Positions 4,769-24,617 of a DNA stretch of 64,000 nucleotides are shown here, piece by piece. Every line of letters starts with the position of its first letter. Positions within the stretch are counted from its first letter, which is position 1. Origin of the DNA: Methanolinea sp. (GTDB lineage: Archaea; Halobacteriota; Methanomicrobia; Methanomicrobiales; Methanospirillaceae); contig JASEES010000006.1 in assembly GCA_030019395.1 (NCBI GenBank), forward strand, positions 1-64,000, written 5' to 3'. The notes under the pieces are model-generated. The model saw nothing but the letters and a program-made list of their open reading frames with translations. It ran no database searches and was not told the origin of the DNA. A program made the position numbers and the translations under genes.

Positions 4769-6427
4769 ATGAATGCCCGCATTGCCGTCATCCTCGTTTT
4801 ACTGGTGCTTGTTACGCAGGGTTGCATCACGACAAGGGATGTCGTGGAATCCCCGAAAAACCCCATGAACATAACCTTGGGTCAGGCCGTCGGTGCCATC
4901 AACGCAGAACTCGCCTCTGTCCGCACAGTAAATCTCGCCAGTGCAGAACGCCTCTCCCCGGTTGGTCTGAGAGGAGGGGAAGTCGAAGCGGTCCTGTCAG
5001 AGAAACTCGTTGCCCTGCCATGGGCTATCTCTTCGGTCACCATCTCATCTGACGGGATAATTGCCACGGCTGTCCCGGCAACATTCCGGGATATCGTGGG
5101 CAGAAATGTCAATTACCAGGACGCAGTCAGGGATGCGCTTGAAAAAAAGGCTCCGCGGGTGAGTGAAGTATTCATGATGGAGGAAGGCTTTGCCGGGATC
5201 TCACAGAGTGCCCCCGTTTTTTCTCCCGGAGGGATTTACATGGGATATACCGACGTAACCTATCGGCCGGAGACACTGATCGGGAGGGCGGTGGAACCGG
5301 TCATTGCAGCGACGGCCTATGATATCTGGGTGGTCCAGAAAGACGGAAGGGTAATTTATGATACAACGCAGGAGGAGATCGGGAAAAACCTCTTCTCCGA
5401 TCCTGCATACCAGTCCCCGGAACTTCAGGCATTCTTCTCTCGCGTGGTATCCGAGCCGGAAGGCAGGGGTGTTTACCGTTTCTGGGACCGGAACTGGGAC
5501 CGTGTCATCACCAAGGAAGCAGTATGGGCAACGGCAGGAATTGACGGGGCGGAATGGCGTGTTGTCCTGACATCCCCGGGGGACGAAGCGTCACCAGCCG
5601 GTGCAGGGTTATTGCCCAATGCATCATTCCAGAACCTGTCAAATCTCGATTCCTTTGTCCGGGACGCCGCCTCGTTTGCCCGGGAGGCAGGCAAAGACGA
5701 AGCTCTTCGGGAATTCAATGACCAGAAGGGACGTTTTTCCAAGGGTGAATGGTACATATTCGCATACGATATGAACGGGACGGTCCTTGCACTTCCCTAC
5801 CAGCAGGGACTTGTCGGGGAAAACCGTATCAATGTCCGGGACAGCAACGGGGTTGAATATATCCGTGCCATGGTTACCCTCGCGTCCCGTGGAGGAGGGC
5901 ACACTTATTACGTGTATCCCAATCCTTCCGCGGGTTTTTCCGGGCAATTGAAATTATCCTCTGTTGTTCCCGTGGACGATGAATGGTTCGTCGGTTCCGG
6001 AGTATACCTGCCCCATGTCGATGCCGGTTTCAGCCAGAAGGAACGGGATCAGCTCGTGCAAAAGGTGAAGAAGGCCCGGGACTTTGCGCAGCAGCAGGGA
6101 AAGGAGGCAGCCCTTGCGGCCTTCAACGACCTTTCCGGACCGTGGGCAGATGGTGCATCGTATATCTTTGCATACAGTCTGAACGGTACAACCCTTGCTC
6201 TCCCGAACCAGCCCGGATTAATGGGAACAAACAGGCTTGGATTTTTGGACCATTACGGTGTTGCGGCCGTTGAATGGGAATGTGACGTTGCAGCACGAGG
6301 TGGCGGTTTCGTGTACGTGGTATACCCGAACCCCGGGACCGGGAACGAAGCTCTCAAGCTCTGTTACGTCGTTCCCGTAGATACGGAATGGTTCGTGGGT
6401 TCCGGGATCTATTCAACCTCTGCCTGA
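4769..6427 (+). CDS. exported lipoprotein with tandem Cache-type sensor domains
   Basis: 552-residue predicted cell-surface lipoprotein. The start at 4769 gives a short basic N-terminus, a hydrophobic segment (IAVILVLLVLVTQ) and a lipobox-like QGC at about residue 18. The first part holds a PAS-like extracellular domain (TAYDIWVVQKDGRVIYD, typical of Cache domains). Two further copies follow: each begins with a helix (SFVRDAASFAREAGKDEAL; KVKKARDFAQQQGKEAAL) and contains FAY, NGT-LALP, RGGG..YVVYPNP and EWFVGSG(V/I)Y. The last two copies are clear duplicates. There is no kinase, HAMP or chemotaxis domain, so it is a stand-alone ligand binder rather than a transmembrane receptor. The ligand is unknown. 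Confidence 0.82.
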   Translation: MNARIAVILVLLVLVTQGCITTRDVVESPKNPMNITLGQAVGAINAELASVRTVNLASAERLSPVGLRGGEVEAVLSEKLVALPWAISSVTISSDGIIATAVPATFRDIVGRNVNYQDAVRDALEKKAPRVSEVFMMEEGFAGISQSAPVFSPGGIYMGYTDVTYRPETLIGRAVEPVIAATAYDIWVVQKDGRVIYDTTQEEIGKNLFSDPAYQSPELQAFFSRVVSEPEGRGVYRFWDRNWDRVITKEAVWATAGIDGAEWRVVLTSPGDEASPAGAGLLPNASFQNLSNLDSFVRDAASFAREAGKDEALREFNDQKGRFSKGEWYIFAYDMNGTVLALPYQQGLVGENRINVRDSNGVEYIRAMVTLASRGGGHTYYVYPNPSAGFSGQLKLSSVVPVDDEWFVGSGVYLPHVDAGFSQKERDQLVQKVKKARDFAQQQGKEAALAAFNDLSGPWADGASYIFAYSLNGTTLALPNQPGLMGTNRLGFLDHYGVAAVEWECDVAARGGGFVYVVYPNPGTGNEALKLCYVVPVDTEWFVGSGIYSTSA

Positions 6428-13654: not shown

Positions 13655-13665
13655 TACCCCCGTAG
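13655..13665 (+). repeat. left attachment core (attL candidate)
   Basis: TACCCCCGTAG, identical to 24527-24537. It lies just upstream of the likely integrase start and downstream of the last chromosomal gene, where an integration junction is expected. Confidence 0.65.
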
Positions 13666-13723
13666 GGTTCCAGACTCATTGACCACTACACTAATGTATC
13701 ATTACGTGGGATCTCTTTTCTTG

Positions 13724-14872
13724 ATGGACTCTGAAGAGGAACTGATCTCCCGATACTTCGAGGAACGACAAGCACACCGCGGCACCCGGGAACAGAGCGT
13801 GAACGCACGGCGATATGAGTTATCGTTTGTTCTGAACCTTTTGCACAAGGCCGGGAAAAGACTGGATACCATCACCACACAGGACGCACTTGGAGTATTC
13901 CGGGCGATCCGGTCTATGGGACCTGTTGACGAGGGCGGTGATGGGACATTATCCCGGAACTATAGCCGCCGCGTGATAGTTACGTTCAAATCGTTTTTAA
14001 CTTGGTATGCGGATAACGGCGGCCGTATCGACACCAGGAAGATAAAACCTGTCAAGGCTCCGGGTATGGACTTCGCCGCCAAAAAGAAAGAGGACCTGCT
14101 AACGCGAGAAGAAATAGAACGAGTCCTTACCGCATGCACCACGTCACGCGATCGGGCCATTATCGCGACGTTATACGACGGGTCCCTTCGCCCTGGTGAA
14201 GTGGTCGGGTTGAAATGGGGCGACCTTATCCGGGACGATTACGGAATACGCATAGTCCTTAAAACCCCCAAAACTGGAAAGGAACGGCCGATACGGTTTG
14301 TTTTTGCCGTCCCGTATATCAACCAGTGGGAAAACGATTATCCTCTTCCAATCGCCCCCACGGCCCCGGTTTTCCTGCAAACCGTGAGGCACTCGCATAA
14401 CTACGCGCCGTTAACCTACGCCGGCCTTGCCAAAACAATATCCCGCCTTCGAAAAAGGACCGGGATTAATAAATTAACCCCATCAATTTTCCGGCCCTCG
14501 AAAATCACGCATGATGTTGAAGAAGGGACTGATTTGCAATACGTCATGTTAAAAAACTGGGGGACAATGAGGACGCCGATGATCGACGTCTACGCGAAAC
14601 CGGGAAAAGACTATGTGGACCGGGTGGCGTTGGAAAAATCGGGTATTGCGCAGAAAAAACCCGCGAAGAAGACGGTCACGCTCGCCCCCAAGGTATGCCC
14701 GGAGTGTCAGACTTTGAACCCGGCAAATGCGGCATATTGTGTGACTTGCGGATACGGACTCACACCGGATACCAGGGCACGTAGGGGGACGGTCTTGGAT
14801 GTCCTCGCAGACCTGGCAACGAAGGACCCCGAAGGATTCATGGATGCGCTGAAGACATTGAAGAAATCATGA
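13724..14872 (+). CDS. element integrase, tyrosine recombinase with C-terminal zinc ribbon
   Basis: 382 residues from the ATG at 13724 (MDSEEELISRYF); an ATG at 13694 is also inside the element, and the frame is open further left. The N-terminal SAM-like domain precedes the catalytic part: Arg in DGSLRPGEVVGLKWGDL, Lys in LKTPKTGKERPI, an altered box II (PSIFRPSKITH, where HxxR is usual), Trp in LKNWGTM in place of the LGH His, and the nucleophile Tyr in MIDVYAKPG. A zinc ribbon follows (CPECQ...CVTCG). Archaeal integrases of this type with a C-terminal ribbon are common in plasmids and proviruses. Its position next to the left core implies that it made the insertion. Confidence 0.85.
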   Translation: MDSEEELISRYFEERQAHRGTREQSVNARRYELSFVLNLLHKAGKRLDTITTQDALGVFRAIRSMGPVDEGGDGTLSRNYSRRVIVTFKSFLTWYADNGGRIDTRKIKPVKAPGMDFAAKKKEDLLTREEIERVLTACTTSRDRAIIATLYDGSLRPGEVVGLKWGDLIRDDYGIRIVLKTPKTGKERPIRFVFAVPYINQWENDYPLPIAPTAPVFLQTVRHSHNYAPLTYAGLAKTISRLRKRTGINKLTPSIFRPSKITHDVEEGTDLQYVMLKNWGTMRTPMIDVYAKPGKDYVDRVALEKSGIAQKKPAKKTVTLAPKVCPECQTLNPANAAYCVTCGYGLTPDTRARRGTVLDVLADLATKDPEGFMDALKTLKKS

Positions 14873-15397
14873 AGGTTGGCAGGGATCTGTATCAGGGATG
14901 GCTTTATTCATGATTTGTTTCATGTATTCCTCACTATTCCGTTCGAGTTCCGCTGCTCGTTCCTTCAATGTTTTTAGTGGGTCTTTTATTCCAAGTTCGC
15001 TCAAAATAAGTTGTGCTGCAAGATCTCTGGTTGTCAATTTCATAACCAGTTTGTAGAGTTTTTTACTATCAGCAAAAAGAACGTCGCGGGTTTGGGGGAT
15101 CACTCCGATTTTTATTCGATAAAAGAGGGGCCGTTTACCAGGTTCTTGTAGATTCTTTTCGCATCGTTTTTGTTCAATAAGATCGGCATCTGTCATTGCT
15201 TTCAGTAGACGATTTAGGGTGGTGCTGTGTGGGATCTCCCCCGTCTCCACCAATGCAGAATGAAGATCCCGGGCTCGGACCCATCCCCCATTCTGGTCAC
15301 GATGCTCGAGGAGATATTTAATGATTAATTCTGTGTAGATACGCTGCTCGTCTCCCTTCCTTGTCTTTAGGAAGTCATGAACGCGATCATACACCAT
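14867..15397 (-). CDS. winged-helix regulator of the element
   Basis: 176 residues. A winged-helix-like N-terminal half (IIKYLLEHRDQNGGWVRARD, then STTLNRLLKAMTDADLIEQ) resembles archaeal DNA-binding repressors. The C-terminal part is helical and charged (LKTLKERAAELERNSEEYM), suggesting a dimerising coiled coil. The start at 15397 is chosen because a TATA box (15421-15430 on this strand) lies about 25 bases upstream, giving a leaderless mRNA; the frame stays open to 15475. It is divergent from the ribbon-helix-helix gene across a repeat-bearing intergenic region. This arrangement is typical of a maintenance switch. Confidence 0.7.
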   Translation of the reverse strand: MVYDRVHDFLKTRKGDEQRIYTELIIKYLLEHRDQNGGWVRARDLHSALVETGEIPHSTTLNRLLKAMTDADLIEQKRCEKNLQEPGKRPLFYRIKIGVIPQTRDVLFADSKKLYKLVMKLTTRDLAAQLILSELGIKDPLKTLKERAAELERNSEEYMKQIMNKAIPDTDPCQPS

Positions 15398-15420
15398 TTC
15401 CTCATAGTTGAACACTTTAA

Positions 15421-15430
15421 CTTTTATATT
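15421..15430 (-). promoter_or_regulatory. TATA box of the winged-helix regulator gene
   Basis: AATATAAAAG on the minus strand, about 25-30 bases before the ATG at 15397, so the transcript should be leaderless. The adjoining 12-base repeat overlaps its upstream edge. Confidence 0.6.
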
Positions 15431-15464
15431 ATTACACAATGGTATGTGAAATTTATTACACAAT
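15429..15464. repeat. paired operator-like direct repeats
   Basis: TTATTACACAAT occurs exactly at 15429-15440 and again at 15453-15464, with starts 24 bases apart. The first copy touches the TATA box of the winged-helix gene and the second lies between the two divergent promoters. Likely binding sites for one of the two flanking regulators; which one is not known. Confidence 0.6.
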
Positions 15465-15482
15465 AGACAGTCCAACGTGAAA

Positions 15483-15492
15483 TTTTATATAG
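15483..15492 (+). promoter_or_regulatory. TATA box of the main element operon
   Basis: TTTTATATAG about 33 bases before the ATG of the ribbon-helix-helix gene. It leaves a short leader that contains the GAGG ribosome binding site at 15513-15516. Confidence 0.5.
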
Positions 15493-15524
15493 GAATAAAA
15501 TAACTATATATTGAGGCGATTAAA

Positions 15525-15692
15525 ATGGCCAAACGGTTCGTCGGGCTCAGTCTTGAGACGAGCACCTTAAAAGCCCTGGATAGCTTCCGGGGCGACATTC
15601 CGAGGAGCAGGATCATTGAGAGATTGCTTCAAGAACGACTAAAATTAGAATCCCCGTCCTCACAGCTTGCAGGCGTAGGAGACGGGGAATGA
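15525..15692 (+). CDS. ribbon-helix-helix DNA-binding protein, 55 aa
   Basis: Read directly from the bases. It has a beta strand (KRFVGLSLE), a first helix (STLKALDSFRG), the turn and a second helix (PRSRIIERLLQERLK), which is the MetJ/Arc/CopG fold. A Ser/Gly tail follows. GAGG at 15513-15516 supports the ATG. It is the first gene of the main rightward operon and faces the divergent winged-helix regulator, so it probably controls element copy number or the choice between integration and replication. That role is inference. Confidence 0.75.
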   Translation: MAKRFVGLSLETSTLKALDSFRGDIPRSRIIERLLQERLKLESPSSQLAGVGDGE

Positions 15693-15710
15693 TCACATTG
15701 GGGCGATCAG

Positions 15711-15878
15711 ATGAATATAGACACTTCGAAGTCTAAAAGTTATTCTCTCCCCCTCAAGGTCACCCAGGAAGACATCGAGCACCTTCCGCCCCTCGAGCGT
15801 ATTTTTGCAGAATTTTTGATCCGAACCAGGCCAGGCGAGGTTTTCGTTCTTGTCGACGACGAGGGGGCGGGTCATTGA
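15711..15878 (+). CDS. small unknown element protein, 55 aa
   Basis: Begins MNIDTSKSKSYSLPLKVTQE and ends VFVLVDDEGAGH. Acidic, probably folded, no recognised family. It starts 18 bases after the ribbon-helix-helix gene in the same operon, and its TGA overlaps the TTG start of the next frame (TTGA). Confidence 0.55.
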   Translation: MNIDTSKSKSYSLPLKVTQEDIEHLPPLERIFAEFLIRTRPGEVFVLVDDEGAGH

Positions 15879-16105
15879 GGCCGCGGGGCAGAAATCCCGC
15901 ACACCGGGCCAGATTCCTGGTCGAGCAGGTGAAAACAGGCTCTCTTACGACCCGTGGACAGTGGACGCGGTTCGCTGACGAACTACACTGCCTCCCTGGC
16001 GGGTTGCTTTTGTGGGTTCTCCGGGAGATCCGCCCGCACCTCGGGGACGAGGCCGTTTCCTACATCATGCAATGGCCGGGTAAAGCGCAGGGGGTGACGA
16101 TGTGA
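15875..16105 (+). CDS. small basic element protein, 76 aa
   Basis: The TTG start at 15875 overlaps the preceding stop as TTGA, and its own TGA overlaps the ATG of the topoisomerase-like gene as TGATG, so translation is probably coupled on both sides. The sequence is Arg-rich at the N-terminus (RPRGRNPAHRARFLVEQVKT) with a hydrophobic helix LPGGLLLWVLREI. No family recognised. A start further in cannot be excluded. Confidence 0.5.
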   Translation: MRPRGRNPAHRARFLVEQVKTGSLTTRGQWTRFADELHCLPGGLLLWVLREIRPHLGDEAVSYIMQWPGKAQGVTM

Positions 16106-17028
16106 TGGGGGATATCGAGGCGGCAGTAACCACCGACCCTTATCGAACATGTTCGATAAGGAAGAGAACCCGACGATCACCTAAGGATCTCAATACCATC
16201 CTGGCTGCCTGCCGGGCTATTATTGCTGAAGAAAAGACCGTTACCTTAAGGCATCTGTTCTATCGTCTTGTTTCCCTTGGACTGATTGAAAAAACCGAAA
16301 AAGAATATGGGAGGTTGTCATTTTACACGATGAAATGGAGGAGAAATGGATCAATCCCTTGGACCTCCTTTGTGGATTCTTCACGCTGGTATCATGGCGT
16401 AGAGGTATTTGATAACCTTGCCGATGCCCTTGAAAACTCAAAACGATGTTTTCGCCGCAATCTCTGGCAATCCCAAAAAGTCTATATCGAGATATGGACC
16501 GAGAAAGACGCGATCGCAGCTATCGCACAGCAAGCAGCAGAACCTTTTGGCGTTCCTGTATTTCCTATGAAGGGATTCGTATCGGGTTCGGCTCTCTATT
16601 CCATCGCACAAGCAATTAAATATCAACAGAGTTGTGGGAAAACGGTTTATGTCTACCATCTCGGGGATTGGGACCCATCCGGTAAATGCATCGATGAGAG
16701 CACGGTGAAAAATCTTCGTGAAGATCATGGCGTCGTATTCAATTTCAGTCGGTTAGCAGTCACACCCGAGCAAATAAAGCAATACGACCTCCTCACGCGA
16801 CCTACGAAGAAAACAGATCCGAGATCGAAGTCCTTCCAGGGGGAGAGTGTCGAAGTGGACGCCCTGCCACCTCACATTATCCGAGATCTCGTTGAGTGGT
16901 GTATCTCCCATCATATTGAATCCCAAGCGTGGCTGCGTGAGATGGAAATTGAGGCCATGGAGAAAAAGATGTTCGACCGCATGACCGAGGCCTTAGATAG
17001 GGGGGACTTTGAGGGGGTGACGGTGTGA
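16105..17028 (+). CDS. topoisomerase VI A-subunit-like protein (Mini-A type), no B subunit
   Basis: 307 residues with the Spo11/TopVI-A order. A winged-helix segment has the candidate catalytic Tyr53 in TVTLRHLFYRLV. A TOPRIM domain follows with Glu133 (WTEKDAI) and the DxD pair Asp188/Asp190 (HLGDWDPSG). It is shorter than the roughly 360-residue cellular A subunit. No GHKL ATPase (B subunit) is encoded in the element. Such solo A-like proteins in mobile elements have been described as Mini-A. They may nick or cleave DNA for replication or recombination; the activity is unproven. GGGGTGA lies eight bases before the ATG. It is coupled to the helicase gene by a GTGA overlap. Confidence 0.8.
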   Translation: MGDIEAAVTTDPYRTCSIRKRTRRSPKDLNTILAACRAIIAEEKTVTLRHLFYRLVSLGLIEKTEKEYGRLSFYTMKWRRNGSIPWTSFVDSSRWYHGVEVFDNLADALENSKRCFRRNLWQSQKVYIEIWTEKDAIAAIAQQAAEPFGVPVFPMKGFVSGSALYSIAQAIKYQQSCGKTVYVYHLGDWDPSGKCIDESTVKNLREDHGVVFNFSRLAVTPEQIKQYDLLTRPTKKTDPRSKSFQGESVEVDALPPHIIRDLVEWCISHHIESQAWLREMEIEAMEKKMFDRMTEALDRGDFEGVTV

Positions 17029-18935
17029 ATGGTGCGGGTGCCCTTCAATCCCAAGACCGGGCTGCAGTAATTTCAAGACTCGAAGATCTTCGAACGCGCG
17101 AAAAGAACGCTCCTATTGAAGCGCGGCAAGAGATTGCGCTCGAAATTTCAAGATTAACAACTCTTCTTCAGAAGATCGACGGCGCAATTACAGAAACCAG
17201 GTGCGAGGAGGACTCGTATAAACGCGACAGCACGGGCCCTTCGGAATACGATGAGATAAACACGCGACTATGGCTGGAAAGGGAACAGAACCGTCTTAAA
17301 GAAATCGCAGCAGAACGGGACCGGCAGGAAAGATTGACCGTTCAATGCCGGGATGGAACTGTTGGGTGCGCGTATAGTGATATAGGAAACGCTCGTCGGT
17401 TCATAATTCGGCATCACCGCAATGTCAGATATTGCGCACCCTGGCGGAAGTGGTTGATATGGGATGGGGCCCGCTGGGCAATAGATGATAGAAACGAGAT
17501 ACTGCGTCTGGCAAAAGACACAGCACTCCGGATTGCTGATGAGGCACGCATTCAGGATACCCCACAGGAAGTCTTGCGGTGGGCGGCGGCATCGCAGAAC
17601 CACGCCCGGATTATGGCAATGGTTGATTTATCAAAACCTGAATGTGCAATCCTTCCTGAGAATTTCGATGCAAACCCAAACCTCTTGAATTTCCCGAACG
17701 GCACCCTCGACATCAGGACGTTCATGTTCCGCGAGCACCGGAGAGAAGACCTATGCACAAAGGTCATGGGATGCATCTATGACCCTGATGCGCAATGCCC
17801 GACCTGGCTGGAACACTTGCACATCGTCTTCGCAGGAGATGAGACCTTCATTCATTCTTTCCGGTTGATGTGCGGATACTCGCTCCTCGCAAATAACCCG
17901 GAACAGGTCCTCTTCGTCCTGCATGGCGGAGGAAAGAATGGAAAGTCCGTCACCATCGGAACCCTGCGGCGGATCTGGGGGGAGTATGGCTGGAACCTGG
18001 CGGCAGACAGCCTTCTGGCCCGAAAGCATGCGGATGCATGCACACCACGGTCGGACCTTGCCGCACTAAAGGGCGTTCGCCTGGCCACGGCGTCAGAGAG
18101 CGATGGAGGCACCAGGTTGTCAGAGGCTACCGTGAAGATCCTCACTGGTGGTGACGATGTACTGACGGTCCGTCGCCTCTATTCCGAGGAGTTCTCATTC
18201 AAACCCGGCGCAAAGATCTGGCTCGTTACGAACCATTTACCGACCGTTCGAGGCACTGACGAGGCGATATGGCGGAGGATCTGGCTGGTCCCGTTCACAG
18301 TCACCATCCCGGAGGATAAACGAGACCCAATGATGGGAGATAAGCTGTATGCCGAGGCGTCCGGGATCTTGAACTGGTGCCTGGAGGGATTCCGGGAGTA
18401 TATGCAGGCAGGCCGGTTAGTGAGACCGGAGATAGTCACCCAGGCAACCGATGCATACCGGGAAGACCAGGACATACTCGCTGACTTCCTGGCGGAATAC
18501 TGTGATGTGGGTGAGGGGTATGAATGCACCGCAAAGGAGCTTTACCAAGCATATCGACAATGGTGTGCATGGGATAATGAGGAGCCGCTGAAGCCGAGAA
18601 CCTTCGGGATGCGGATGGGTGAGAGGTTCCAGAGGGTTCACACCAGGCTGGGGAAGGTCTACAAGGGTGTGAAAATTCGGAGTCAAAGTAACATCATCAA
18701 AAACAATCAAAATACACCCTGTGACGGAAAAGAAGCCCGGGTGACGGATAAATTCATTACGGGGAAAAGTCCCCTTAAGGAATCAACGGAATACTTTACC
18801 CCCTTTTTGAATTATCCGTCACCAAGCGTCACCGAGCCCGTAAAATCGAGATCGGATCTGAGCGCGAAGTGCGACCCACCATCCGACTCGGAACTGACTG
18901 CAGCACGGCGGGACCGGCAGGGGGTGGGGTCATGA
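17025..18935 (+). CDS. D5-family SF3 replicative helicase
   Basis: 636 residues with a GTG start overlapping the preceding TGA and a strong GAGGGGG upstream. Residues 1-110 are helical and charged. D5_N-like sequence follows (GNARRFIIRHHRNVRYC onward), then the SF3 helicase core with Walker A HGGGKNGKS near residue 300 and LWLVTNHLPTVRGTDEA-type sensor sequence (KIWLVTNHLPTVRGTDEAIW is 20 residues, near 405). The C-terminal D5 wing lies near 490-570, then a low-complexity tail. The archaeo-eukaryotic primase domain often found at the N-terminus of such proteins is not visible. It would unwind the element origin as a hexamer. Confidence 0.85.
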   Translation: MNGAGALQSQDRAAVISRLEDLRTREKNAPIEARQEIALEISRLTTLLQKIDGAITETRCEEDSYKRDSTGPSEYDEINTRLWLEREQNRLKEIAAERDRQERLTVQCRDGTVGCAYSDIGNARRFIIRHHRNVRYCAPWRKWLIWDGARWAIDDRNEILRLAKDTALRIADEARIQDTPQEVLRWAAASQNHARIMAMVDLSKPECAILPENFDANPNLLNFPNGTLDIRTFMFREHRREDLCTKVMGCIYDPDAQCPTWLEHLHIVFAGDETFIHSFRLMCGYSLLANNPEQVLFVLHGGGKNGKSVTIGTLRRIWGEYGWNLAADSLLARKHADACTPRSDLAALKGVRLATASESDGGTRLSEATVKILTGGDDVLTVRRLYSEEFSFKPGAKIWLVTNHLPTVRGTDEAIWRRIWLVPFTVTIPEDKRDPMMGDKLYAEASGILNWCLEGFREYMQAGRLVRPEIVTQATDAYREDQDILADFLAEYCDVGEGYECTAKELYQAYRQWCAWDNEEPLKPRTFGMRMGERFQRVHTRLGKVYKGVKIRSQSNIIKNNQNTPCDGKEARVTDKFITGKSPLKESTEYFTPFLNYPSPSVTEPVKSRSDLSAKCDPPSDSELTAARRDRQGVGS

Positions 18936-19237
18936 GCCCACGTCTGCGATGGTTCAAACACAACCAGCGAAGGCCGGCAAGGGACACACCACCGGCAAGC
19001 GAGGACAGGCACCCGGGCGGCCCCGTTCCTGGACTCTGGTGTTTCCAATGTTGGGAATGCGGGCACCGATGGACCGGTCCCCTCGTTTGGAACAATGCCA
19101 AATGCGCCATTTGCGGGGAGACCGTCCGGGTATCATGCGTGCGGCAGGCAACCCCGGGCACGGCATCACAACCCGGGGCCGGCCCCACACCCGCGACAAC
19201 AACGGCGAACAGTACCGAGGTGAAACATGAGCCATAA
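18932..19237 (+). CDS. small zinc-ribbon protein, 101 aa
   Basis: The ATG overlaps the helicase stop as ATGA. A basic N-terminus leads to CFQCWECGHRW and KCAICGE, giving a four-cysteine zinc ribbon with extra cysteines. A Thr/Ala/Pro-rich tail follows. Possibly a DNA- or protein-binding accessory of the helicase; no family is recognised. Confidence 0.6.
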   Translation: MSPRLRWFKHNQRRPARDTPPASEDRHPGGPVPGLWCFQCWECGHRWTGPLVWNNAKCAICGETVRVSCVRQATPGTASQPGAGPTPATTTANSTEVKHEP

Positions 19238-19694
19238 TAAAACGAGCAAAAGATCTTTAGTTTCTGAAGAAAAGCGGCAGCGGGCATTGGATTTACGCCG
19301 TGCCGGGGTGCCATACCGGGACATTGCACGCGAAATTGGCGTCTCACCCGGGCAGGCATACAAATACGTTGTATCTGGTCTGCGCCAAATCAGGGAGAGA
19401 AACGCCGAACTGGCCGAGGACGTCCGGACCCTTGAGAGACTCAGACTGGATAACCTGTTCCAGCACGCGTTTAATGCCGTCCTTCAAGGGGACTTGTCGG
19501 CAATCGACAGGTGTATAAAAGTAATGGACCGGCGGGCCCGAATGGACGGTCTCGACGCCCCGAGCAGGTCCGAGGTCACGGCGAGCCTGACCAGCACACC
19601 CGAATGGATCGAATTGAGAACAAAAATCTTAAACGTCCTGGAGAAATTCCCGGGCGCGAAAGAACAATTGATCAGAGAATTACAGGAGGTTTGA
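19227..19694 (+). CDS. helix-turn-helix protein, terminase-small-subunit-like
   Basis: 155 residues with GAGGTGA seven bases upstream. The N-terminal helix-turn-helix (ALDLRRAGVPYRDIAREIGV, then SPGQAYKYV) resembles the homeodomain-like region of resolvases and small terminase subunits. The helical C-terminal half (NAVLQGDLSAIDRCIKVMDR) resembles small terminase central domains. No large terminase is present, so a role in packaging is doubtful. It may instead bind the replication origin. Confidence 0.55.
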   Translation: MSHNKTSKRSLVSEEKRQRALDLRRAGVPYRDIAREIGVSPGQAYKYVVSGLRQIRERNAELAEDVRTLERLRLDNLFQHAFNAVLQGDLSAIDRCIKVMDRRARMDGLDAPSRSEVTASLTSTPEWIELRTKILNVLEKFPGAKEQLIRELQEV

Positions 19695-19698
19695 AAAA

Positions 19699-19887
19699 AT
19701 GAATGAGCTGATTTTCGACATTAAAAAACGCCTCATGCCCGCATGGAAAGTCCTGCGGGTAAAGGCCGGAACGACGGAAGAACAGATAGAAGAACTCAAA
19801 AAGGCAAACCCGGCGGAAAACTATGTTATCGTCGAACTCGTCGGGCGGAAGGATGTTGAACCCACAATTACGCGGCAAGAAAAATAA
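19699..19887 (+). CDS. small unknown element protein, 62 aa
   Basis: A very strong ribosome binding site (AGGAGGT) overlaps the previous gene's end. The sequence begins MNELIFDIKKRLMPAWKVLR and continues with the alternating pattern ENYVIVELVG. No family recognised. Same operon as the helicase. Confidence 0.6.
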   Translation: MNELIFDIKKRLMPAWKVLRVKAGTTEEQIEELKKANPAENYVIVELVGRKDVEPTITRQEK

Positions 19888-19899
19888 CGAGGTAATTAT

Positions 19900-20100
19900 A
19901 TGACAACTAAAATAAAATACGAGTTATGGAACAACGGCAAGAAGGTAAAAGCCATTGACACGTGGCCCGATGCGATAGATAAATACTTGGAACGCGACGG
20001 CGACGAGGTCTTTCCGGCCGGCAAGTCACCATACGTGGAAGAGGACGACAAGATCACCGAGGTTATCCCCCTCGTGCCTGAAAAACGGAAGGTGTTCTGA
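19900..20100 (+). CDS. small acidic element protein, 66 aa
   Basis: MTTKIKYELWNNGKKVKAID followed by an acidic stretch (DGDEVFPAG, EEDDKITEV). GAGG lies nine bases upstream. Its last base is the first base of the next gene's ATG, a one-base overlap. No family recognised. Confidence 0.6.
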   Translation: MTTKIKYELWNNGKKVKAIDTWPDAIDKYLERDGDEVFPAGKSPYVEEDDKITEVIPLVPEKRKVF

Positions 20101-20678
20101 TGCCCATCCTGAAGAAAACCACACCGGACGCCGACCAGGACGAGGTCGCGGCATTGAGGGCAGAGGTCGAACGATTAAAAACCCTCGACCGCATAAAGGC
20201 GAAATACCACGTTACCGACCCGGAAACCGCCGAGGCGCTCCTTGAACGCGAAAGGCAGGAAGAGGAAGAGAAAGCCCGCCGCCTCCGGGACTTTGAAGAG
20301 GAACAGCGCAGGAAGGCCGAGTTTGCGCAGAAGGCGAGAGAAAAGGCCTTGGAACTCTTCGAGACCGACCGCCTTCGGATCTGGTACCTCGAGTCAGGCC
20401 GTCCGGTGCAGAAGGTAAAAACCCTTGCCGGTTACGCCGTGCCCTGTAAGCAGTGCGGCGAACCCCTGCGGGAAACCATCTACCGGGTGCAATATGTTGG
20501 AGAGGCCTTTCTCAGGTATATCGATCGACCCATGCAGGACGGATCCGACCTGATCATTTACTCGGCCCGGAACCCGCTAAGCGTCTTTGTTGGGACCCTC
20601 TCGTTTTGGTTTCGCGAGAGGTGCTCAAGTTGCGGGAAAACGTCTTCCGGCCTCGCCCAATTAACGGTGTTGGAATGA
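20100..20678 (+). CDS. coiled-coil protein with zinc-binding C-terminus, 192 aa
   Basis: Residues 12-85 form a long charged coiled coil (EVAALRAEVERLKTLDRIKA and RERQEEEEKARRLRDFEEEQ). The C-terminal half has two CxxC pairs (CKQCGEP near 118 and CSSCGK near 177) that could form a zinc ribbon around a beta-rich insert. No family is recognised. The layout would suit a structural or DNA-organising protein of the element. The stop overlaps the next ATG as ATGA. Confidence 0.65.
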   Translation: MPILKKTTPDADQDEVAALRAEVERLKTLDRIKAKYHVTDPETAEALLERERQEEEEKARRLRDFEEEQRRKAEFAQKAREKALELFETDRLRIWYLESGRPVQKVKTLAGYAVPCKQCGEPLRETIYRVQYVGEAFLRYIDRPMQDGSDLIIYSARNPLSVFVGTLSFWFRERCSSCGKTSSGLAQLTVLE

Positions 20679-20872
20679 CCCGGACCACCCACGAGGCGAG
20701 GATCGCGGCGTTGGAAGAGAAGGTGGCCGCCCTGGAGTCCGCCCTGGACCGGGTCACCGATATGGTCGGCGAGATCATGGACCTGCAAAAACGCACGCAC
20801 GAGTGCGTATGCCGGCAGGACGCCCGGGCCCCGGGTGGACCCAGTGACGACGGGACGCCGTACCACCGGTGA
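20675..20872 (+). CDS. short coiled-coil protein, 65 aa
   Basis: MTRTTHEARIAALEEKVAAL continues as leucine/valine heptads to about residue 40, then two cysteines (ECVCR). The ATG overlaps the preceding TGA. It ends the main operon; the roughly 300 bases beyond hold no convincing gene. Confidence 0.6.
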   Translation: MTRTTHEARIAALEEKVAALESALDRVTDMVGEIMDLQKRTHECVCRQDARAPGGPSDDGTPYHR

Positions 20873-21170
20873 ATGGGCCCTCCGGTAACATCACCGGGGG
20901 GTTAAAAGGGTTTTCGCGATATCGTTGCAGATAATGCGGGAATCCAATCACCTCTTAGCGATTGAACGTGAACGGGCAAAGAAGAGGCATCAGGAAACCT
21001 GAATCTGTGGTGGCAACGTTGCCACCACAAAATGAAGGCAAATCCCCACCAGGTGGAATAGGTGCGGCCATTATCACTATCCATTGTGGATAGTGATACC
21101 CACAAAACGGGATGGAAAAGGCCCCGTTTCTATTTCGGGGCAGATGGGAAATGTCCCTTATAAAAACGTT

Positions 21171-21344
21171 TTACTTCTTTTCAACCCGTAGACATTTCCT
21201 ATTCTCATCAATTGTGATCAATACATCTTCCCCATCTTCAAAAGGGAAACGGTCATCTCCCGCAACATCGGCAGGGATGGAGATATATCGAGTCCTGGCC
21301 TTTCCACTTATCAAGAATATTTTTCCTATTCCCTTCTTTGACAT
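21171..21344 (-). CDS. AbrB-like (SpoVT/AbrB fold) regulator, 57 aa
   Basis: Found only by reading the minus strand. MSKKGIGKIFLISGKARTRY leads into ISIPADVAGDD and EDVLITIDENRKCLRVEKK, the strand pattern of swapped-hairpin AbrB proteins common in archaeal viruses and antitoxins. A TATA box on the minus strand (about 21368-21381, AAAGTATAAATATC) is 25-30 bases upstream, so the mRNA would be leaderless. It is divergent from the second small-gene operon across a cluster of repeated sites that it probably binds. Confidence 0.72.
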   Translation of the reverse strand: MSKKGIGKIFLISGKARTRYISIPADVAGDDRFPFEDGEDVLITIDENRKCLRVEKK

Positions 21345-21349
21345 TGATA

Positions 21350-21415
21350 ACTAAATTAGTAAGCAAGATATTTATACTTTAACCACCTATTGTAATTTAG
21401 TTACTAAATTGGTAA
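21350..21415. promoter_or_regulatory. operator-like cluster between divergent promoters
   Basis: ACTAAATTAGTAA at 21350-21362 and ACTAAATTGGTAA at 21403-21415 differ by one base. A reverse-orientation partial copy (GTAATTTAGT) starts at 21392. The TATA box of the AbrB-like gene lies between them. The spacing suits cooperative binding of a small dimeric repressor controlling both directions. Confidence 0.6.
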
Positions 21416-21437
21416 CTAACAACAAGGTGAAGAACCC

Positions 21438-21983
21438 ATGCAGAACGTGAAGAACACAAACGCGGCCGCCCCCTTTTCCCCGACTGCAAACGACGGAAAC
21501 GGGAAGGCAGCCAGGAACAGTATCGGCATGCAGATAAATGGGGTTTTCGTTCGGTGCGGCACCATCCGCATGAAGGGGAAGGCCGTCGAGGTCGCATATC
21601 GCGGGGTCGGTGGTGAATATACGGCGTATATCGGGGCGAAGGACATCCCCGGACTCGTCGGCCCCTCGCGTATGCCCTGCGACGTTCATGAGGTCCACGA
21701 GGACCCAGGCACCGACACCACTATGATCACCGTGGTCGGGCGTGCCTGGCGCTCCAGGTCGGGCCGTGCTCTCATGATCAAGACGGTGCACACTGCCGGC
21801 GCGGATATGATGGTCACGTGGCGGAAATTTTTGGACGTCCTCGAGGGGCGCACTGACCGGGCCACGGTCTCGAAATTCGCGGACAGGATAGATACCACTA
21901 CCCCCGCACCGATCGCCCAACCTCGTGCGAATAATGAGCCCGTAAAATCGCCCGTTTCCAAGGGACTCGAGGGGGCGTTCTGA
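21438..21983 (+). CDS. unknown element protein, 181 aa
   Basis: First gene of the second rightward run, with GGTGA 9-13 bases upstream. A disordered N-terminus (about 28 residues, NTNAAAPFSPTANDGNGK) precedes a beta-rich central domain (MQINGVFVRCGTIRMKGKAV; MITVVGRAWRSRSGRALMIK). A helix (WRKFLDVLEGR) and a disordered Pro-rich tail follow. This is the general plan of a small nucleic-acid-binding protein, but I recognise no family. Confidence 0.65.
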   Translation: MQNVKNTNAAAPFSPTANDGNGKAARNSIGMQINGVFVRCGTIRMKGKAVEVAYRGVGGEYTAYIGAKDIPGLVGPSRMPCDVHEVHEDPGTDTTMITVVGRAWRSRSGRALMIKTVHTAGADMMVTWRKFLDVLEGRTDRATVSKFADRIDTTTPAPIAQPRANNEPVKSPVSKGLEGAF

Positions 21984-21985
21984 TC

Positions 21986-22123
21986 ATGCCCTTTACACCC
22001 GATGAAGAGGCGGCAATCGAGAAGATCCTGATCGACCTCGCGAAGACTGAGGAGGGCCGTGCTCTTCTCCGTCGGTATGCAGAGGACCATGGGATCCAGA
22101 TATCGAAGGAAGAGGCGGAGTGA
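21986..22123 (+). CDS. very small element protein, 45 aa
   Basis: MPFTPDEEAAIEKILIDLAK with an acidic helical end (ISKEEAE). A G-rich ribosome binding site lies just upstream and the gene starts two bases after the previous stop. No family recognised. Confidence 0.5.
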   Translation: MPFTPDEEAAIEKILIDLAKTEEGRALLRRYAEDHGIQISKEEAE

Positions 22124-22125
22124 TC

Positions 22126-22347
22126 ATGCCCGACATTCCGGTCCTTGGAAACTATCTGCATACCACCCGGCAGGAAGGACCTGTCTACTCCTCGAGTATC
22201 ACGATAGGCACCCCGGCAAAAGGCGGCGAAGTGAAGGTCTATTTCGACCCGGCCGACCCCGTGGACGCAGAGAAGAGGATCCGCGAGGCATTCCGACTGC
22301 GGGCGCTCGCCCGGGCCCTGGCAGAAGGACAGGAGGTGCACGCATGA
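22126..22347 (+). CDS. small element protein, 73 aa
   Basis: MPDIPVLGNYLHTTRQEGPV, then a beta strand (GGEVKVYFDPADP) and an Arg/Ala-rich helix (EKRIREAFRLRALARALAE). A GGAG site lies upstream. The stop overlaps the next ATG as ATGA. No family recognised. Confidence 0.5.
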   Translation: MPDIPVLGNYLHTTRQEGPVYSSSITIGTPAKGGEVKVYFDPADPVDAEKRIREAFRLRALARALAEGQEVHA

Positions 22348-22490
22348 CCTGGTGGATCTGCAGGTCATGTATCCCCGCGTGTCAACTGCGAGGGGTTAAT
22401 GATCCGGAGAACCCCCCACGAGGGTGTCCCTGGAGATACAACAACCCAGACGAACCCGATAAGTCAAATTGGCGGAATGTGGTGGACTAA
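22344..22490 (+). CDS. very small Cys/Trp-rich element protein, 48 aa
   Basis: MTWWICRSCIPACQLRGVND has three cysteines close together with a fourth in PRGCPWRYNN, so it may bind zinc. An AGGAGG site lies upstream. Coupled to both neighbours by overlapping start and stop codons. Confidence 0.5.
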   Translation: MTWWICRSCIPACQLRGVNDPENPPRGCPWRYNNPDEPDKSNWRNVVD

Positions 22491-22654
22491 TGCCATCCGA
22501 ACGCTGGCACGAACTGGAACGCCGGTTCCAGGCCGAGTATGATAAGGTAAACTGGTATCTCCGGCACGACGACCTTATGGCGGCCGCATATCACCGCGGG
22601 AGAATGGACGCGGCCCGTGCCGCCCTAGAGGAATACGAACGGAGGCACCCGTAA
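22490..22654 (+). CDS. very small helical element protein, 54 aa
   Basis: The ATG shares a base with the preceding TAA (TAATG). MPSERWHELERRFQAEYDKV is followed by a second helix rich in Ala/Arg. An amphipathic helical hairpin is likely; function unknown. Confidence 0.5.
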   Translation: MPSERWHELERRFQAEYDKVNWYLRHDDLMAAAYHRGRMDAARAALEEYERRHP

Positions 22655-22812
22655 TGAGATGCAAGAAATGCATGAACTGGCAGTGGGACCTCGTGTGGCC
22701 CTATGCCACATCTGAAGAAGGTATCTCCCTGCACCTGTGGCAATGCACGACGTGTAAGCATGTGGTTCTGGCGTCGGATCAGACCGCAGAGTCAGAATGG
22801 GTGACAGTATGA
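22654..22812 (+). CDS. very small zinc-ribbon-like protein, 52 aa
   Basis: Two CxxC pairs (MRCKKCMNW and WQCTTCKHV) about 30 residues apart make a minimal zinc ribbon. The ATG shares a base with the preceding stop (TAATG), and its own stop overlaps the next start as ATGA. Confidence 0.55.
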   Translation: MRCKKCMNWQWDLVWPYATSEEGISLHLWQCTTCKHVVLASDQTAESEWVTV

Positions 22813-22964
22813 TACCGACAACCTTTTTCCGGGAGAGGGCGATCGCATATCGTCGTATCCTTGACCTGGAACGCGAGGCCGATGCCCTCGACCGTGCCGG
22901 GTATCCAGTCCAGGCACGCGCGAAACGGGCCACCGCCTCCATCCTGCGGGCTTTATGGATGTGA
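22809..22964 (+). CDS. very small helical element protein, 51 aa
   Basis: MIPTTFFRERAIAYRRILDL is followed by EREADALDRAGYPVQARAKR. It is a basic, two-helix protein with no known family. Last gene of the second small-gene run. Confidence 0.5.
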   Translation: MIPTTFFRERAIAYRRILDLEREADALDRAGYPVQARAKRATASILRALWM

Positions 22965-23033
22965 TCATGTTGTGGGGAATTTACTGGGTAACGAAGTCGG
23001 CGAAAATATTCATGTAATCCCGTTGGGTGTTGC

Positions 23034-23489
23034 TCACTGACCCATTATTACTTTCACCCGCTCTCTTTTTTCCTGTGATTTCTGGAGCCATGGAGAGGCT
23101 GTTGAGATATAACCAAGAGCTTCGATAGAACCAGCGTCCTGGACCTTTGAGAGATCAACACAGGCCATACGGAGATCGCTAAGAGCTGAAAGGTAATCCT
23201 GTTTTGCGGTTGAATATTTAGTGGTTACTTGAATTTTAGAAATGGCATCATAATGCCCATCAATGGTATTAATCATGGCCTTTGATTTTCCGGACATTGC
23301 TTTCAAATCAATGTTTGTGGTCCCTTCTGGTCCCATAGCCGCGCGCATATCGTTACCATACTGAATCACATCGGTTTCAGAATCTTGCCAGGCTTTCCGG
23401 AACTCATCATCGGGATTTCCACCTAAACATCCAGAGAGGGCCATAGTGGATATTAGGATTAGTAGAAGGAGTGCATGGAGTATTTTCAT
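23034..23489 (-). CDS. small lipoprotein carried by the element
   Basis: 151 residues. The signal peptide (MKILHALLLLILISTMALSG) ends in the lipobox cysteine at residue 21, followed by CLGGN. The mature part is helical and charged with no recognised domain. It is on the opposite strand to its neighbours and more AT-rich than the flanking host genes. It is probably a passenger gene that alters the host surface rather than an element core gene; that role is inference. Confidence 0.7.
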   Translation of the reverse strand: MKILHALLLLILISTMALSGCLGGNPDDEFRKAWQDSETDVIQYGNDMRAAMGPEGTTNIDLKAMSGKSKAMINTIDGHYDAISKIQVTTKYSTAKQDYLSALSDLRMACVDLSKVQDAGSIEALGYISTASPWLQKSQEKRERVKVIMGQ

Positions 23490-23756
23490 AGGGCTACCAT
23501 ATTAAATTAAGAAAGAAAAAATTTCCGTTTCTCATAAAACAAAAGATCATATCGTGACCACCTCGATCGCCCATCTCATTTTTATATTGCTGATAAATAA
23601 TATCTCAATATAAAATCCTTTTTTTGGGATTAAACGTGTTTTATCGTGTTGCTGACTATCCCATACTCTTAATTATGTGGTCGCCGATTCCTGGGACGGT
23701 GACAGGGCCCGGGTTGTTAAGGGGTTCCTGGAACGACCCGCACATTTGGAGAGCAC

Positions 23757-23867
23757 ATGACACAGCGCGACGACATGATTAAGATCTGGGACGCCCAGGA
23801 AGCGGAACTTGCCCGCCTTGTGAATGATCCCGCTGCCGAAAGGTTTAAAAAGGATCGGCATATATGA
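23757..23867 (+). CDS. possible very small protein, 36 aa
   Basis: MTQRDDMIKIWDAQEAELAR with a charged helical remainder ending in KKDRHI. A GGAG site six bases upstream is the main support. No family; could be a chance frame. Confidence 0.35.
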   Translation: MTQRDDMIKIWDAQEAELARLVNDPAAERFKKDRHI

Positions 23868-23882
23868 TCGAATTGGTACCTA

Positions 23883-23954
23883 CCAACCCCAGACAACATG
23901 GTACCCTCACAACCCCCGCGGTTGTCTGTTTGTGGTGTGGTTTTTCGGGGTTGG
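23883..23954 (+). repeat. two-part inverted repeat upstream of the Cys-rich gene
   Basis: CCAACCCC (23883-23890) pairs with GGGGTTGG (23947-23954). Just inside, AGACAAC (23891-23897) pairs with GTTGTCT (23921-23927). The RNA could form a 15-pair stem with an asymmetric bulge. It lies about 80 bases before the Cys-rich gene's ATG and could be a structured leader or a protein site. Confidence 0.45.
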
Positions 23955-24032
23955 TTAAAACAGGATTATTTGACCGAAGGTTCGTTTCCTGGAACCGATC
24001 GAATCAAAAAAAGTCCTAAAGAGGTAATGATC

Positions 24033-24299
24033 ATGTATTGGAACACCGAATGTGATAAATTAAACGAAACGTGCGACGAATGCGTAAAGGAATTTTGCTC
24101 CGAATGCATTAAGGAGTATTGTCAATACGAATGCAAGGCCGGGGATCTTCCCGAAGTCTGCGAGACCTGCGATCCGAGGGAAGAGTTAAATTGTGTCTAT
24201 GATTGCGACCTTTCGGAACGTTTGGGGTGTGCGGACTGCGAGGAAATCAGGAATTTATGTATCGAGTGCGACGAAGTAAAAACCTGTGATATCAGATAA
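24033..24299 (+). CDS. small acidic cysteine-rich protein, 88 aa
   Basis: Sixteen cysteines in 88 residues, mostly as close pairs: CDEC, CSEC, CQYEC, CETC, CVYDC, CADC and CIEC, in a strongly Glu/Asp-rich background. Such density implies metal clusters or several zinc sites; in an anaerobe iron-sulfur or thiolate-metal binding is possible. GAGGT at 24021-24025 fits the ATG at 24033; one at 24027 is also in frame. No family recognised. It is the last gene of the element, about 230 bases before the tRNA. It has no signal peptide. Confidence 0.65.
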   Translation: MYWNTECDKLNETCDECVKEFCSECIKEYCQYECKAGDLPEVCETCDPREELNCVYDCDLSERLGCADCEEIRNLCIECDEVKTCDIR

Positions 24300-24526
24300 T
24301 TCATTTTTTTCGTCGTGACCAACAGACATAATATACCCGCCCAACAATCCCTTTTTGCCAACCCGACCAGGGGCGGGTTGTGCTATCGGTCATTCACCAC
24401 CTGCACATACACAACCCCCGCATCTTTTTTCCTGCGTGATGGGGTCAAACGTTTTTATTATTGACACGCGAATATTGACAGGCAACCAGATACACAAGAT
24501 GTTAGTGTATTTGCCAATCGGTCGTT
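24300..24526 (+). other. non-coding right end of the element
   Basis: No gene seen. CAACCCG (24358-24364) can pair with CGGGTTG (24374-24380). CACAACCCCCGC at 24410-24421 repeats the sequence at 23909-23920. An imperfect inverted repeat (GGCAA 24481-24485 and ATACAC 24490-24495, against GTGTAT 24505-24510 and TTGCC 24511-24515) ends 11 bases before the attachment core. This may hold integrase arm sites and the promoter now used by the tRNA. Confidence 0.45.
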
Positions 24527-24537
24527 TACCCCCGTAG
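24527..24537 (+). repeat. right attachment core (attR candidate)
   Basis: TACCCCCGTAG, identical to 13655-13665. It covers the base before the tRNA and its first ten bases (5' acceptor strand plus three bases), so the insertion leaves the tRNA body intact. Confidence 0.65.
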
Positions 24538-24600
24538 TGTAGCGGTCAATCATGCAGGACTTTGGATCCGGCGACACCAGTTCGAATCTGGTCGGGGGTA
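24528..24600 (+). tRNA. tRNA-Gln (anticodon TTG)
   Basis: Acceptor ACCCCCG (24528-24534) pairs with CGGGGGT (24593-24599), discriminator A at 24600. T-arm stem ACCAG/CTGGT surrounds TTCGAAT. The anticodon loop CTTTGGA (24560-24566) gives TTG at 24562-24564. The anticodon stem has one A-G mismatch (24556 with 24570). CCA is not encoded. The gene is the insertion target of the element on its left, so its upstream promoter region now comes from the element. Confidence 0.88.
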
Positions 24601-24617
24601 TGGGGAGTGTAAATTCG

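Follow-up and report, generated by a model that had tools for sequence, protein, structure and literature searches.

What does a topoisomerase A-like protein do in a mobile element that brings no B subunit with it? The question is raised by a gene at 16105-17028 in a 64,000-nucleotide stretch of Methanolinea sp. DNA (hereafter the window), whose product had been read from the sequence alone as a solo relative of Topo VI-A and Spo11, of the kind called Mini-A, with a possible role as a nickase or break-maker at the start of replication. The protein is a Mini-A, an added member of a family that is already known. The family has been catalogued, but never assayed in the literature within our reach: its archaeal members were called uncharacterised in 2021, and we found no assay of any Mini-A in reachable literature, including that which has appeared since. 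What this case supplies is a bounded 10.9-kb element, an overlap between the genes for Mini-A and a helicase, cleavage residues that are strictly conserved, and Mini-A genomes free of Top6B. The last of these, and an association with more than one kind of helicase, are what this analysis adds.

An integrated element and its genes

The element extends from about 13655 to 24540, some 10.9 kb, and is integrated at the 5' end of a tRNA-Gln gene (24527-24601). We place it there because of two att copies and an empty site. The cores, both on the forward strand and both of the form TACCCCCGTAG[G/T]GT, lie at 13655-13668 (left, TACCCCCGTAGGGT) and 24527-24540 (right, TACCCCCGTAGTGT, which is the 5' end of tRNA-Gln itself); the window holds these two matches where 0.03 are expected. 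In a genome of the same genus, the left flank continues straight into tRNA-Gln with a single copy of the core. The left core falls at the junction with this empty site, and the right one was placed by the empty site and by a repeat search. Integration at the 5' end of tRNA-Gln, with TACCCCCGTAG as core, is an observation in its own right; integrases that target tRNA genes usually use the anticodon loop or the 3' half of the tRNA.

Near the left end lies a tyrosine integrase with a C-terminal zinc ribbon (13724-14872, forward strand; Phage_integrase E 1.5e-12; phrog_1 E 4.3e-26 for 13724-14869). The empty-site alignment puts its start inside the element; a longer ORF, from 13589, starts in host DNA. 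Next comes a divergent ORF (14867-15475, reverse strand), possibly a winged-helix regulator, whose HTH_Crp_2 match is sub-threshold only. A small forward ORF with no family match (15875-16105) is probably the first gene of a three-gene unit that continues with Mini-A and the helicase: its TGA overlaps the Mini-A ATG, as TGATG. The Mini-A ORF runs forward from the ATG at 16105 to a stop at 17026-17028 and encodes 307 aa—308 aa if translation begins at the in-frame GTG at 16102, instead—and in the GTGA at 17025-17028 its stop and the helicase start overlap. Upstream of both starts there is a G-rich, Shine-Dalgarno-like stretch, GGGGGTGA, read by eye.

The helicase (17025-18935, forward strand; 636 aa) is a replicative enzyme of superfamily SF3, D5-type, matched by D5_N (E 1.1e-31), DUF5906, Pox_D5 and primase_Cterm (E 3.1e-76), and by phrog_1829 (E 6.8e-118) in an alignment limited to the C-terminal part of that profile. 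Domain profile searches found no primase domain in it, whereas its relative from Oceanobacillus is composed of Prim-Pol, PriCT_2 and D5_N. The sequence-only reading had coupled the A-like gene to a replicative helicase through the GTGA overlap, and had remarked that the element encodes no GHKL ATPase as a partner. Both statements stand, the second for ORFs of at least 150 aa, among which a domain profile search found no GHKL domain.

Downstream of the helicase an HTH protein (19227-19694, forward strand; HTH_23 E 6.6e-7; phrog_645 E 1e-29) and further small ORFs complete the element. Searches with Pfam and PHROGs recognised in it neither capsid, terminase or other virion genes, nor any recombinase, annealase or exonuclease, and we regard the element as integrated and plasmid-like. 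At its right end stands a cysteine-rich ORF (23898-24299, 133 aa) with repeated C-x-x-C and no family match. The 3' end of the helicase gene contains, at 18721-18836 (fold z -3.0), an origin-like arrangement in which GTGACGGA occurs at 18721 and 18741 and the inverted CCGTCAC at 18816, within a 31-nt, 77% inverted repeat. We rejected this repeat as a general origin, since a search of related loci did not find it, and for the same reason it makes only a weak candidate for the origin of this element.

Family membership and active site

Profile searches, which had been proposed as a check on the Mini-A assignment, came out divided: the protein matches phrog_6247 ('DNA topoisomerase') at E 3.6e-49, but its match to TP6A_N of Pfam is sub-threshold (E 0.025), and Pfam and NCBIfam together hold no family that it matches above threshold. 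The assignment itself is borne out by the PHROGs match and by tblastn, which matched Mini-A (gp49) of Pseudomonas phage NP1, a review's example of the family, at E 1e-21 over 88%, and a gene annotated Topo Mini-A on an 8.8 kb archaeal plasmid (P-7H_11, LC711082) at E 9e-20. In all, tblastn reached 71 phage records, NP1 among them, and 46 plasmid records, many of them from Streptomyces plasmids. A scan of viral_contigs with the single Mini-A sequence found no relatives, whereas an alignment query did recover them. In organization, too, the protein belongs to this family: a winged-helix tyrosine and a TOPRIM Glu and DxD are combined in one short A-like protein without a fused ATPase, and the gene lies on a mobile element, with an integrase, 14-bp att cores and an unoccupied site in a genome of the same genus. 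The family was reportedly published by Takahashi et al. in 2020, and a C-terminal motif is said to distinguish the three groups Topo VI, Topo VIII and Mini-A. The archaeal plasmid LC711082 (8776 bp) deserves a remark of its own: its Mini-A is very divergent (end branch 2.47), no recognisable helicase stands beside the gene, and it offers a minimal system for genetics.

The catalytic residues of the window protein are Tyr53, in VTLRHLFYRL, Glu133, in EIWTEKDA, and Asp188 and Asp190, in HLGDWDPSG. When 168 relatives are aligned, Tyr53 and Arg49 are each found in 165 of the 165 that cover the region, and Glu133 in 168/168; the DxD (D188, D190) is likewise present in 168/168, a count that is not independent because DxD belonged to the pattern by which relatives were recruited, so that the independent evidence comes from Tyr53, Arg49 and Glu133. 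Unconstrained hhalign aligns Mini-A with Top6A over residues 32-240 at E 5.7e-4, with a probability of only 30%, and pairs TLRHLFY with TLRELYY, EIWTEKD with AIAIETG, and GDWDP with TDGDP. In this register Y53, E133, D188 and D190 correspond to Y106, E202, D254 and D256 of Methanosarcina mazei Top6A (active-site numbering from PMC13040014). With a narrow Top6A alignment the match was weak (probability 1.6); adding the solved Top6A sequences brought it to E 5.7e-4. The best PDB sequence match of the family profile is M. jannaschii Topo VI-A (1D3Y, E 0.015). Tyr53, Glu133 and Asp188-x-Asp190 had been taken, from the letters alone, for the cleavage core of Spo11/TopVI-A, with conservation of the tyrosine among homologues as one point on which that view would turn; register and conservation both uphold it.

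AlphaFold2 (91 sequences; pLDDT 90.9) predicts a winged helix at residues ~26-100, which carries Tyr53, a TOPRIM domain at ~125-255, which carries Glu133, Asp188 and Asp190, and C-terminal helices thereafter: the anticipated resemblance to 5Y-CAP plus TOPRIM. Foldseek returns just three PDB chains with E < 0.001, all of them DNA-bound M. mazei Topo VI-A (prob 1.00). The match is moderate, at TM 0.46 and an rmsd of ~9 A, and so the predicted fold is that of Topo VI-A while the two structures as wholes superpose only loosely, possibly because the domains are arranged differently. A library of viral structures gave no useful full-length structural match to the model.

The fold class also contains the TOPRIM nucleases of the JetD/MksG/Gabija kind, and weak matches to DUF2399 occur in 5 of 91 relatives; might Mini-A be another such nuclease, for defence or the degradation of host DNA? 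We think this very improbable. The 5Y-CAP-like domain of MksG has no tyrosine candidate (PMC10123090), whereas Tyr53 and Arg49 are invariant in Mini-A, and no SMC-type partner occurs among the Mini-A neighbours that we tallied.

One further column of the alignment caught our eye. Residue 250, in the motif E-[LV]-D-A-L, is Glu in 150 relatives and Gln in 15 (L014 and L015, for example). In Top6A, change of the clasp glutamate, E342, to Gln makes Top6 prone to cleavage (PMC13040014). If E250 of Mini-A is the equivalent of E342—a correspondence made by eye only, since the Mini-A/Top6A profile alignment ends before this region—the Gln250 relatives would be natural hyper-cleavers.

Partner genes and function

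Could Mini-A borrow the B subunit of its host? Top6A and Top6B are both encoded by the host chromosome, on a different contig and so out of sight of the sequence-only reading, and Top6A is present in 61/61 Methanomicrobia genomes sampled, so to speak as standard equipment. Mini-A might depend on host Top6B, standing in for the A subunit in the host's Topo VI, and the planctomycete genome in which its closest relative (L017) occurs does encode Top6B. We consider this improbable, nonetheless. Top6B was not found in 28 of the 30 other Mini-A genomes reached through the loci (one of the 28 is a MAG from a methanogen and may lack the gene through being incomplete), which suggests that Mini-A proteins in general can do without it. 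Nor does the window protein have a counterpart to the extended N terminus of Top6A, where the latch lies (residues 44-67 in M. mazei): in the predicted model its residues 1-25 are disordered, and a helix at 26-43 opens the winged-helix domain.

What Mini-A does keep company with is replication genes. Among 163 non-redundant loci, searched with two-round profiles, a replicative helicase or primase lies within two genes of Mini-A in 29, where 9.0 are expected for a random gene drawn from the same loci, with the cautions that the helicase and primase profiles were seeded from Mini-A neighbours and may inflate the counts, that random genes near the edges of loci centred on Mini-A see fewer neighbours, and that genes were called crudely. 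With the 12 seed loci removed, 17 Mini-A loci remain where 6.1 are expected, and 0 of 5000 draws was as high. In most of the 163 loci (134), no such gene was recognised at that distance. By Pfam and PHROGs, the neighbours within that distance include AAA_25 (15), Toprim_3 (6), DUF3987 (4), Prim-Pol (4), D5_N (4), DnaB_C (3) and DUF927 (2), and hence proteins that are not homologous to one another: RepA-like, DnaB, DUF3987, and Toprim or BT4734-like primases. The window protein falls in a small clade with sequences from Planctomycetota and Verrucomicrobiota (SH-aLRT 99), two members of which have an intact downstream region; directly downstream of Mini-A stands a DnaB helicase in one (L017) and a BT4734-like primase, with a 4-nt overlap, in the other (L024). 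Because partner helicases of different superfamilies occupy the same place, these arrangements argue that Mini-A serves replication, rather than one particular helicase.

Within the class, Mini-A was found in 3 of 232 genomes, the window's included. A second lies in an element (L030) with a primase/helicase-like gene directly upstream. Another methanogen has a remnant (L221, 8493-11641 in G171) with a tRNA-Leu and an integrase of the same zinc-ribbon type; the Mini-A there has a divergent C-terminus and is followed by pilin-like genes. Two neighbouring families seen elsewhere may be mentioned. At ten loci (L101, 3797-4519, and nine others) a family of ~170-240 aa, whose representative has no Pfam match, stands directly downstream of Mini-A, often with an overlap of 4 nt or 1 nt, and is a possible partner. 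A DUF2786/DUF7168 protein lies directly upstream at four loci (L006, at 4898-5896; L009; L155; L169), in three of them overlapping Mini-A.

Adjacency to several unrelated helicases and primases favours a role in replication, as far as gene order can speak, and it would fit an initiator, a swivelase or a recombination-type break-maker alike. Our own preference, held at slightly better than even chances, is that Mini-A is a B-independent, Spo11-like cleaving or swivelling enzyme that serves replication of the element. It would be a DNA-cleaving protein of type IIB, related to Topo VI-A and Spo11, and would probably act as a homodimer whose active sites are hybrids, each pairing one subunit's Tyr53 with its partner's TOPRIM metal site (E133, D188, D190). 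The enzyme would cut a single strand or both and remain joined to the 5' ends through phosphotyrosine; together with the co-encoded SF3 helicase it would help the excised element to replicate, its part being to open or relax the supercoiled DNA. Mouse SPO11 alone, an A-type dimer with no B subunit, behaves somewhat in this manner in vitro, making double-strand breaks and nicks and resealing the nicks (PMC11922746).

SPO11 dimers, which make double-strand breaks on their own (PMC11922746), can also be cited for a different outcome, in which breaks made by Mini-A start recombination-dependent replication or recombination of the element, rather than relaxing DNA or opening an origin. The Mini-A gene of phage NP1 abuts one for a Sak4-like RecA annealase and is near a Cas4-type exonuclease, and RecT is present among the tallied neighbours; the window element, however, has no recognised recombinase, annealase or exonuclease, and helicases or primases are the majority of coupled genes. 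We judge this alternative to be rather unlikely. Somewhat less probable still is a sequence-specific, Rep-like nickase that would cut the element's origin and load the adjacent helicase. That the gene overlaps one for a helicase devoid of a primase domain would suit such an initiator, as would the association with unrelated helicases and the GTGACGGA inverted repeat; but that repeat is weak and was not found in relatives, and enzymes of the Topo VI/Spo11 kind read the shape of DNA more than its sequence (PMC13040014, PMC11922746). To a related idea we give the same low rank: that Mini-A proteins are initiators of the Spo11 type for the replication of mobile elements, tyrosine-linked nickases or break-makers derived from a topoisomerase, which would open the origin for whichever helicase is at hand and so stand in functionally for the HUH Rep nickases. 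Even so, with the recurrent pairing, in which the helicases and primases are not homologous, 'function unknown' gives way to a replication hypothesis that can be tested. If that hypothesis is right, the Topo VI-A/Spo11 core would gain a third job, beyond strand passage and meiotic breaks.

Mini-A among related systems

Topo VI is an A2B2 holoenzyme with a GHKL B subunit, and none is encoded alongside Mini-A in the element. With archaeal Top6A, Mini-A shares the winged-helix R-x3-Y, the TOPRIM E...DxD and a later P-x-K-x-x-D segment; unlike Top6A it is shorter, has no linked B gene, and superposes at a TM of only 0.46. Topo VIII, for which only faint activity has been reported, is likewise related to type IIB enzymes and found on mobile elements, but it includes a B/ATPase part, whereas Mini-A corresponds to an A-like part alone. 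JetD/MksG, the nuclease of Wadjet/MksBEFG, is also a TOPRIM nuclease related to Topo VI-A; it has no winged-helix catalytic tyrosine (PMC10123090) and works with an SMC complex, whereas Mini-A has its tyrosine throughout and an SF3 helicase for a neighbour.

Spo11 has the same A-type cleaving core, and the mouse protein acts in vitro without a B subunit (PMC11922746). Unlike Mini-A it is a eukaryotic meiotic protein, and we found no direct sequence match between the two. The closest parallels are NP1 gp49 and the Mini-A of P-7H_11, each a single A-like protein of ~300 aa with the same four catalytic residues, on a mobile element, with no adjoining B subunit. The window protein is ~25-30% identical to them and differs from both in its setting, an integrated element of a methanogen, where its gene overlaps that of an SF3 helicase.
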